From positions 1 through 40,615 of the forward strand of contig PLOU01000081.1 in the NCBI GenBank assembly GCA_003142235.1: a DNA stretch of 40,615 bases, written 5' to 3'. The stretch's first letter is position 1. Every line of letters starts with the position of its first letter. This DNA is from Granulicella sp. Its GTDB lineage: Bacteria > Acidobacteriota > Terriglobia > Terriglobales > Acidobacteriaceae. Positions 9,078 through 17,741 of the stretch are shown here, in pieces. A model generated the notes under the pieces. That model was not told the origin of the DNA. It ran no database searches and saw only the letters and a list, made by a program, of their open reading frames with translations. Position numbers and translations under genes: made by a program.

Positions 9078-9722
9078 TCAGCGTTCTGTCGCCGTCTGGG
9101 GCACGATCGCGCCAGCCCCTTCGGGCCCATCCTCAACAAGATGAGCGATGTGGCCCACCTGCAGCTTCACCAGCTCCGGCTGCGCGATGCGCGTCGGCCC
9201 AAGCACTGCAATCCGGGGCAGCGGCCCGCGCACCATCGCCACTTCGTCGCACGCATACAGCCGCGGACAGGCCTGGCAGTCCTTGTATATCTTGTCCGGC
9301 AGCGTCGTCCGGTCGGCCAGCCGGAAACCGAAGTGGAAGAAGAAGTCGGGAATCCGCGTGAACAGGCACACCGACGCGACGCCCTGCTCCTCGGCCTCCT
9401 CCAGCAACGCGAGCAGAATCCGCCCGCCCGCGCCCTGCCCCTTGGCCTCCGGTTTCACCACGATCGACCGCACCTCGGCCAGGTGCGGCCCATACAGGTG
9501 CAGCGCACCGCAGCCCAGAAAGATGCCGCTCTCCGACTCGGCCACCGCGAAGTCGCGCACGTTCTCGCAGATGTCCGCGTAGTTGCGGCGCAGCAGAGTT
9601 CCATCGCCGGAGAGCGAGTTGACCAGCTCGAAGATGTTGACCGCGTCCTGTAGCCGCGCCTTGCGCACCACCGCGCCACCCGCACGCGCGCGCGTCGATG
9701 CGGTGGATTCGCTGGCGGCCAT
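9078..9722 (-). CDS. argA: Short N-acetylglutamate synthase-type GNAT acetyltransferase, last gene of the arg operon
   Basis: 214 residues from the ATG at 9722; a TTG at 9740 with GAGGAG 10 nt upstream is an alternative start. GNAT fold: VRKARLQDAVNIFELVNSLS (strand 1/helix 1), FLGCGALHLYGPHLAEVRSIVV (strands 4-5), then the acetyl-CoA loop KPEAKGQGAGGRIL and CLFTRIPDFFFHFGFR. This matches the short-form N-acetylglutamate synthase group known from actinobacteria, which acetylates glutamate to open arginine synthesis. A tail of about 45 residues after MVRGPLPRI is unusual. It follows argH by about 45 bp on the same strand, in an operon that otherwise lacks argA and argJ, which supports the assignment. 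An alternative is a generic GNAT enzyme with another substrate. Confidence 0.75.
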   Translation of the reverse strand: MAASESTASTRARAGGAVVRKARLQDAVNIFELVNSLSGDGTLLRRNYADICENVRDFAVAESESGIFLGCGALHLYGPHLAEVRSIVVKPEAKGQGAGGRILLALLEEAEEQGVASVCLFTRIPDFFFHFGFRLADRTTLPDKIYKDCQACPRLYACDEVAMVRGPLPRIAVLGPTRIAQPELVKLQVGHIAHLVEDGPEGAGAIVPQTATER

Positions 9723-9767
9723 CAGGGACGAGCTGGACAAGTTGATGAAGCTCCTCTCTCTATCTTC

Positions 9768-11432
9768 TCAGAGTTGCGCCAATGCGTCCGAACTCAGCCG
9801 CTGGCGGGCCTCGGTCAGCGCGGCACGCACCCGCGCGCGCGCCGTGCCGCCGATTACATCGTGGCAATCCAGCGTGGCCTCCAGCAAAATCGCCGCATGG
9901 AAATCTTCGCCGAACGCCGGACTCAACCCCTGCAACTCCGCTAGCAAAAGCGCGTCCAGCTCGCGCCCGCTCTCCAACCCCAGCCGCACCGCATTGCCCA
10001 CAATCTCGTGCGCCTTGCGGAACGGAACGCCCTTGTTCGAGAGATAGGTCGCCGCAGCCATCGCGTTCAGATAGCCCATCGCCGCAGCCGTCTTCATCCG
10101 TTCAAAGTTGAACTTCAGCGAGCGCGTGAACGCAGGCAGAATCCCCAGAATCCCGCGGACTGTGTCCGCTGCGTCGAAGACCGGTTCCTGGCCCTCCTGC
10201 AAGTCCTTGTTGTACGCCAGCGGCAGCCCCTTCAGCAGCACGGCCAGCGTCGTCGCCGCACCAATCAGCCGCGCGCTCTTGCCGCGTAGCAGCTCCGTAA
10301 AGTCCGGATTTTTCTTCTGCGGCATCGCGCTCGATCCGGTCGAGAAGGCCTCCGGCAGATCGAGAAACCCAAACTCCGCCGTCGAGTAAATCGTCAGTTC
10401 CTCGGCAAACCGCGAGATGTGAACGCCCAGCGTGGCCAGGGCTTGCGTGAACTCAAGCAGAAAGTCGCGGTCGCTGGTCGCGTCCATGCTGTTGGGCGTA
10501 GGCCCGTCGAACCCCAGTTCCCGCGCCGCGATCGCGCGGTCCAGCGCAAGCGTCGCGCCCGCAACCGCTCCCGAACCCAGAGGACACAGATTCATCCGCC
10601 TGCGCGCATCCGCGAGCCGCGAAACATCGCGCTCGATCATTGCCACATACGCCAGCAGCCAGTGCGCCACCAGCACCGGCTCCGCCCGCTGCATGTGCGT
10701 GTACGAGGGCATCGCCGCCTCGCCCGCCTGTTCCGCGAGTTCGAGCAGCGCCAGCGCCCACCTGCGCAGGCCTTTCATGATGTTGTCGATCGCCTCGCGC
10801 ACAAATAGCCGCATGTCGGTGGCAATCTGCTCGTTGCGGCTGCGTCCCGTGTGCAGCTTCAACGCCAGCGGACCGATCACCCGGGTGAGCTGAAGCTCGA
10901 CGAAGTGGTGAATGTCCTCGGCGTGGACCATGGAGGCGGCGAGATCGGCCTCTGCCGTGGCAGAAAATTCCTCGTACGCAGCATCGCCGTCCAGGTTGAG
11001 ATTTGCCTGGATGGCAAAGTGGTTCTTCATCCGCAGCAGCAGGGGATCGTCCTTCGCCAGAACGATGCGCGTGTGCTTCACATGGTCTTCGCAGAACTCC
11101 GGCTGCCTGCTGAGCCAGCGGCGTATAGACCGCGGCGTCGTTCCCAACTCCGCCCCCAGCAGCCTGGGGTTGACGAATCCCGGCTCAACCGGCGCGAACT
11201 CGGGCACGATGTCCCCAACCTGGTCGAGGCCGTCGATCATTCGTTCCAGCTCGGCATCCGTCAGAATACCGACAGCCGCAATCATCCGCGCGTGCGCCTT
11301 CGACGCGGCCACTTCCTGTGGAAGCAGACGCACATCGAACGGAAACGACCGCTGCCACTGCTCGAATGCGGCGTCCAGAGGTTCGCGGAAGCGCCCCGAC
11401 CACATCTTTGCGGATTGTTCTGTGTTGGACAT
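9768..11432 (-). CDS. argH: Argininosuccinate lyase with an internal ~90-residue insertion
   Basis: 554 residues, against about 460 in the family. It splits argininosuccinate into arginine and fumarate. The N-terminal part (MWSGRFREPLD... AHARMIAAVGILTDAELERMIDGLD) and the core from residue 171 (EDIHHFVELQLTRVIG, KLHTGRSRNEQIATD) align by eye with normal ArgH. The catalytic His loop (PSYTHMQRAEPV) and the fumarate-lyase signature (GSSAMPQKKNPDFTELLRGK) are intact. The excess lies at about residues 77-170 (nt 10923-11204), where E. coli has about 15 residues; it includes GTTPRSIRRWLSR, which looks like a helix-turn-helix recognition helix. Frame is kept throughout, so this is an insertion, not a frameshift. 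It sits between argG and argA in the operon. Confidence 0.93.
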   Translation of the reverse strand: MSNTEQSAKMWSGRFREPLDAAFEQWQRSFPFDVRLLPQEVAASKAHARMIAAVGILTDAELERMIDGLDQVGDIVPEFAPVEPGFVNPRLLGAELGTTPRSIRRWLSRQPEFCEDHVKHTRIVLAKDDPLLLRMKNHFAIQANLNLDGDAAYEEFSATAEADLAASMVHAEDIHHFVELQLTRVIGPLALKLHTGRSRNEQIATDMRLFVREAIDNIMKGLRRWALALLELAEQAGEAAMPSYTHMQRAEPVLVAHWLLAYVAMIERDVSRLADARRRMNLCPLGSGAVAGATLALDRAIAARELGFDGPTPNSMDATSDRDFLLEFTQALATLGVHISRFAEELTIYSTAEFGFLDLPEAFSTGSSAMPQKKNPDFTELLRGKSARLIGAATTLAVLLKGLPLAYNKDLQEGQEPVFDAADTVRGILGILPAFTRSLKFNFERMKTAAAMGYLNAMAAATYLSNKGVPFRKAHEIVGNAVRLGLESGRELDALLLAELQGLSPAFGEDFHAAILLEATLDCHDVIGGTARARVRAALTEARQRLSSDALAQL

Positions 11433-11511: not shown

Positions 11512-12912
<1,401 letters not shown>

Positions 12913-17297: not shown

Positions 17298-17741
17298 TCA
17301 GCCAATATATCCTTCGATGCGTACCTTCAACGTGCGCGCCTGCCGCTCGTCCGGGCAAACAATCAAGACCGTGTCGTCGCCGGCGATGGTGCCCACCACC
17401 TCCGGCCAGTCCTCGTAGTCGATGCCTGCCGCCACCGGCTGCGCGGCGCTGGTGGTGGTAATCAGCACCAACTGGTTCATGGCCTGGCGGACCTCGATGC
17501 CAAAGCTGCCCAGCACTTCGCGAATTCCCGGCAAGCTGTCCTCATCCTCGTCCGCCCCATTGCCCGGCAACGCATAACCCGCCGGCCCCTTGGACAGCCG
17601 CAGCTCGTGAATATCGCGCGAGAGCGTCGCCTGCGTCACATGGAACCCGCGCCGCGCAAGCCTGCGGCGCAGCTCGTCCTGGCTCGGCACCGGAGCCTGG
17701 TTGAGTAAATCGCGGATTGCGGTATGGCGCTGCTGCTTCAT
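17298..17741 (-). CDS. argR: Arginine repressor
   Basis: 147 residues, the usual ArgR length. The N-terminal winged helix-turn-helix is clear (QRHTAIRDLL, SQDELRRRLARRGFHVTQATLSRDIHELRL, about residues 4-48). The C-terminal hexamerisation and arginine-binding domain includes AAGIDYEDWPEVVGTIAGDDTVLIVC, with the Asp-Asp pair that contacts arginine in characterised members. With arginine bound, ArgR hexamers bind paired ARG boxes. It is the first gene of the arg operon, about 145 bp downstream of two such boxes, so it probably represses itself together with argCBDFGHA. The 5' leader of roughly 160 nt shows no obvious ribosome site next to the ATG. Confidence 0.95.
   Translation of the reverse strand: MKQQRHTAIRDLLNQAPVPSQDELRRRLARRGFHVTQATLSRDIHELRLSKGPAGYALPGNGADEDEDSLPGIREVLGSFGIEVRQAMNQLVLITTTSAAQPVAAGIDYEDWPEVVGTIAGDDTVLIVCPDERQARTLKVRIEGYIG

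Follow-up and report, generated by a model that had tools for sequence, protein, structure and literature searches.

An argininosuccinate lyase with a candidate DNA-binding domain in the loop before its AEDIHH motif in peat-bog Granulicella

What is a segment that resembles a helix-turn-helix (HTH) doing inside an argininosuccinate lyase (ArgH)? The question is raised by a stretch of 40,615 nucleotides from Granulicella sp. (contig PLOU01000081.1, genome G000; hereafter the window). An original prediction, made from the letters alone, claimed that the ArgH encoded there is 554 residues long and contains an extra in-frame block at positions 10923-11204, possibly a regulatory or interaction domain. 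The block is indeed there: 10923-11204 corresponds exactly to residues 170-77 of the protein, and both peptide segments quoted in that prediction are found in the window ArgH. The gene and its main parts are as follows.

9768-11432, minus strand: argH, argininosuccinate lyase with inserted domain, 554 amino acids (intact open reading frame; 503 bits against TIGR00838)
9771-10925, minus strand: catalytic core and C-terminal domain of ArgH, residues 170-554, conserved
10923-11216, minus strand: expanded loop, residues 73-170, from the helix of the N-terminal domain to AEDIHH (98 residues; genus 11-44, other families of the class 13-19)

Outside the block, the protein is predicted to be an otherwise normal argininosuccinate lyase. 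The reading frame contains no internal stops, and the product scores 502.8 bits with the NCBIfam argH equivalog TIGR00838, above the cut-off of 279.5. The catalytic motifs are intact, as had been claimed: AEDIHH, TGRSRNEQ, YTHMQRAEP and GSSAMPQKKNP are all present and are invariant or nearly so across 42 genus members. In the AlphaFold model the core superposes on known lyases. The whole protein is acidic (pI 5.6, charge -12). Residues 1-72 and 170-554 resemble the argininosuccinate lyase/delta-crystallin family (TIGR00838; PDB 1tj7, 2e9f, 9ggj, 1k7w) in sequence, conserved residues and predicted fold, but where solved members have a loop of about 11-16 residues the window ArgH has a domain that adds about 80 residues.

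The size of this difference follows from several comparisons. Solved structures align to the window ArgH in two stretches, residues 9-74 and 170-547, which in the solved proteins are separated by about 11-16 residues. Measured from residue 72, where the N-terminal helix ends, to AEDIHH, the window ArgH has a loop of 98 residues and its close relative G017 one of 17; in the other measured members of the genus, carriers of the block excepted, the length is 11-44 residues, and across 21 measured genomes from other families of the class it is 13-19. With such short loops in genus and class, this leaves a net excess of about 80 residues. Hence, the original figure of about 90 extra residues was right about the place and somewhat too high about the amount.

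What kind of domain fills the loop? Three parts can be told apart.

11001-11180, minus strand: inserted HTH-like domain, residues 85-144 (GFVNPRLL...HFAIQAN), basic, pI 10.3
11109-11168, minus strand: helix-turn-helix, with helix 89-96, a turn and the putative recognition helix 100-108 (Pfam HTH_23 and MerR matches of a homologue; AlphaFold helices; invariant PR-IRRWL)
10929-11000, minus strand: acidic, poorly conserved linker, residues 145-168 (pLDDT below 50 at 145-161; pI 4.05; 42-73% identity)

The block also occurs in two related genomes, G080 and G035, and the HTH label rests on homology to the G035 copy because the window copy alone is not significant. Against Pfam, the window copy matches HTH_28 weakly (E=0.09). 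The G035 copy, which is 57% identical, matches HTH_23 (4.9e-5), HTH_29 (1.9e-4) and MerR (1.3e-3), although its HTH_23 score of 23.5 bits lies below the Pfam gathering score of 24.6. It also matches a phage excisionase family (E 1.6e-5 to 2.7e-5; for the excisionase/regulator phrog_66, 1.6e-5 over residues 6-60 of 74). Thus the HTH-like segment read from the window finds backing in a homologue, and little in the window's own sequence. All three copies share GFV-P--L--E-G--PR-IRRWL--QPEF, in which the putative recognition helix is invariant at PR-IRRWL. The domain is basic in each copy (pI 10.3-10.8, charge +4 to +5).

Structure prediction points in the same direction. The AlphaFold model of the full window ArgH, built with 42 sequences, has a mean pLDDT of 79 and about 73 over the HTH. 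It places a bridge at 86, helices at 89-96 and 100-108, a short helix at 113-116, a second bridge at 126 and a helix at 130-144, followed by the low-confidence acidic linker; the linkers on both sides of the domain are of low confidence. The isolated G035 domain is modeled with strand 9-10, helices 12-19, 23-32 and 34-43, strand 46-47 and helix 54-68 (mean pLDDT 68). When this isolated domain was compared with the PDB by Foldseek, the top neighbors included phage Xis, RacA-DNA and BldC-DNA, all with E>1 and hence not significant, and a viral structure library returned many excisionase- and MerR-like neighbors that were not significant either. Taken together, profile matches, predicted fold and basic charge support an Xis/MerR-like HTH domain. 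The block is modeled as a domain of its own and not as elongated native helices, the outcome that would have spoken against the original prediction. Two other candidates fared poorly: an RNA element was looked for and found no support, and an intein was rejected because, on inspection, the ends of the block are unlike splice junctions.

Compared with Xis/RacA/BldC/MerR-type HTH domains (PDB 4j2n, 5i44, 6ama; PHROG 66; Pfam HTH_23, MerR), the insert is alike in its predicted order of strand, HTH, helix, strand and helix, in its basic charge and in the profile matches of the G035 copy. It differs in that no fold match is significant and the G035 score stays below the gathering score. Furthermore, those domains are free-standing or terminal, whereas the insert is embedded inside an enzyme loop.

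The reading we favor, with a probability of only about 40%, is that the block is a candidate DNA-binding module that would make ArgH a candidate trigger enzyme. A domain of about 60 residues and of nucleic-acid-binding type (Xis/MerR-like HTH, short strand pair, C-terminal helix) would sit in frame in the loop before AEDIHH. The enzyme would remain active and tetrameric, with four domains projecting from each tetramer. These domains would bind DNA (or RNA), and the lyase would double as a local regulator or as a DNA-tethered enzyme; a regulatory role of the block is possible. Substrate binding could then alter DNA binding or the reverse, which is conceivable because the loop adjoins the active-site His region, but this is the least certain step. 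Weighing against the trigger-enzyme reading is that the HTH match of the window copy and the fold matches are individually not significant, and that the model of the isolated domain averages a pLDDT of only 68.

Enzymes with HTH domains are known. PutA, BirA and NadR are enzyme-HTH fusions with an N-terminal DNA-binding domain, whereas the candidate domain of the window ArgH is internal. Also comparable are trigger enzymes such as PepA, whose part in carAB control provides an experimental precedent from arginine/pyrimidine regulation (PMC6245113), and the BzdR-type evolution of enzymes into regulators (PMC3602430). Like ArgH, these combine a metabolic enzyme with a candidate DNA-binding part; for them, regulation has been shown experimentally, whereas ArgH is a candidate known from sequence and model. 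An ArgH with an HTH insert is, as far as we searched the open-access literature, unreported. If the domain does bind DNA, then this would be a case of a DNA-binding module inside an argininosuccinate lyase, at an early and patchy stage in which close relatives are still without it, and the transition from enzyme to regulator could be tested directly in paired species.

One could also argue that the block acts on catalysis alone, as a lid or allosteric element that alters a mobile loop close to the active site and adjusts the kinetics of the lyase without binding nucleic acid. The block directly precedes the AEDIHH motif, and its region probably corresponds to a mobile loop of delta-crystallin and argininosuccinate lyase (about residues 74-89). 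However, this leaves the HTH signature and the basic charge unexplained, and the low-confidence linkers on both sides suggest a tethered rather than a docked domain. We consider such a role quite improbable.

Is the block real? In three species it belongs to argH as an open stretch under codon constraint, and it contains no stops. Its dN/dS is 0.29 (G000/G080), 0.37 (G000/G035) and 0.24 (G080/G035), and over the HTH part it is 0.26 (G000/G080) and 0.31 (G000/G035); these are rough values from pairwise counts on short stretches. In the core of ArgH the ratio is 0.12-0.19, so that constraint on the block is weaker than on the core. In GC3 the HTH part (0.85) and the core (0.82) are similar. It is true that the assemblies of all three carriers are fragmented (two are titled MAGs), and that argH of G080 is split over two contigs, of which C176 ends at residue 53 and C260 starts at residue 85; since the break lies within the gene, we infer the join of block and gene there. 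In the window and in G035, however, the block lies inside a single contig. A single assembly error is excluded by the occurrence of three distinct sequences (85% and 57% identity) at one site; these sequences, together with the open frames and the codon constraint, make an artefact of assembly, binning or a misread gene boundary, already largely refuted, extremely improbable.

The block is lineage-restricted and sparse even within the genus. A search of 399 relatives with the block alone found it in three genomes: the window's own, G080 (84-85% identical to the window copy) and G035 (57%). This agrees with the expectation that the block is specific to a lineage and not common in ArgH. A pattern scan of 84,980 GTDB species genomes returned the same two relatives only, the Granulicella bog MAGs PLOT01000200 and PLUT01000358, with the limit that the scan requires exact matches to short peptides and could let distant relatives escape. 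The three carriers are related peat-bog Acidobacteria and make up 3 of the 62 genomes of the genus; a few of the remainder have a broken or missing argH. That only three species carry the block, and that the closest relatives manage without it, weighs against the trigger-enzyme reading.

Where the domain came from could not be traced: no donor was found among phages, plasmids, viral contigs, the PDB, the 399 relatives or the GTDB pattern scan. An HMM search elsewhere in the genus gave weak matches only, either at chance level or through the shared AEDIHH anchor, and a search for terminal repeats or a target duplication at the block yielded nothing convincing.

How the carriers are related is informative about the history of the block. 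In trees of the ArgH core, built without the insert, G000 and G080 form a sister pair (97/87), followed by G017 and G008 and then by G009, and these last three are without the block. G035 is placed elsewhere, in the larger tree with G004. The carriers were united in 0 of 200 bootstrap trees. An AU test rejects a single carrier clade on the DNA core tree (p=0.003), and the protein core tree does not reject it (p=0.21). A tree of the N-terminal part comprises 62 codons, too short to place G000 with G035. The scatter of the carriers in the core trees suggests repeated loss or exchange; at this loop, hypervariable in the genus, one or the other is probable though not proven.

Loop lengths in the genus fall into discrete classes of 11, 15-19, 23, 27-28, 32-39, 44 and 95-98 residues, and other expansions at the same site are unrelated to the HTH-like block. 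By their N-terminal 62 codons, G025 and G085 group with G020, G031 and G005 (97/87), with which they share the 44-residue loop class, although the cores of G025 and G085 lie among G002-like sequences. This conflict makes exchange at the N-terminal end of argH plausible. The N-terminal part together with the 44-residue loop appears to have been exchanged between distant members of the genus (L011 and L042 vs L012, L014 and L020), which would make this housekeeping gene a mosaic. The loop looks like a place where length changes and segments are exchanged in mosaic fashion, the HTH domain being the extreme case.

Since the genus accepts unrelated expansions at the same place, the domain may simply be tolerated. 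This is the main rival to our reading, and a serious possibility: a permissive loop gains, loses and exchanges segments, and a captured HTH-like piece folds there without any DNA-binding or regulatory function. The discrete length classes of the genus, set against only 13-19 residues in other families of the class, fit it well, and so do the scattered carriers with close relatives (G017, G008) that are without the block, and the weaker constraint on the block than on the core. Less easily accommodated is that the basic charge and the HTH signature residues have been kept over 43% divergence with dN/dS well below 1, although a constraint on folding alone could suffice. Should the block prove an ornament, a housekeeping enzyme with loops of 11 to 98 residues next to its active site would still provide, within one genus, a natural insertion series for engineering by domain insertion and for the study of recombination within such a gene.

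The neighboring arginine genes bear on the remaining possibilities.

11512-12852, minus strand: argG, upstream of argH (context)
17316-17504, minus strand: match to the C-terminal domain of argR, repressor of the arg cluster (context)

ArgR is present in 60 of the 62 genomes of the genus, including all three carriers, near arg genes. The idea that the HTH of ArgH replaces ArgR was therefore rejected; with ArgR kept in all three carriers, the domain is not a substitute for the known repressor. That no regulator is missing, with ArgR in the same cluster, also weighs against the trigger-enzyme reading. A more elaborate version of this reading, a bifunctional sensor, would have the HTH bind operator DNA, whether in the arg cluster or at other sites, with argininosuccinate in the active-site loop gating the binding as a substrate-level feedback alongside ArgR; in addition, the ArgH loop would serve in this genus as an evolutionary docking site for domains exchanged by recombination. 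We regard this combination as improbable.

Alternatively, the block could be a domain for protein interaction or channelling, with partners such as ArgG, ArgR or the ArgA-like acetyltransferase. Protein contacts through HTH-like domains are known, and argH adjoins argG and the acetyltransferase gene. Yet the block of G080, 85% identical, lies next to an ArgG that is not orthologous (29% identity), and G017 and G008 have an ArgG that is 93-94% identical to that of the window and no block. Hence, interaction with ArgG, suggested originally as a possible purpose of the block, is not borne out, and docking to ArgG in particular is argued against by the exchange of ArgG in G080. We think an interaction domain unlikely overall.

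Some observations on these genes stand apart from the question of the block. The argH of G024 (L111, G024:C1:235000-237500) appears as two overlapping pieces in different frames, which suggests a frameshift, and G024 also has a second ArgH-like gene, 34% identical. A second ArgH-like protein with 32-34% identity occurs in a subset of the genus (e.g., G005:C173, G030:C105, G034:C3) and was not found in the window assembly. Two types of ArgG, of about 446 and about 400 amino acids and about 30% identical, alternate in the genus. The long type is found in the window, G017, G008 and G035; only the short type was matched in G080, G015, G030, G036, G062, G063, G067, G070, G074 and G079. In G080 the short-type gene (L112, 7801-9078) lies directly before argH. 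Directly after argH, positions 9078-9740 of the window encode a GNAT-type acetyltransferase of 220 amino acids that is kept in G035; it probably serves the cluster as its ArgA-like N-acetylglutamate synthase.
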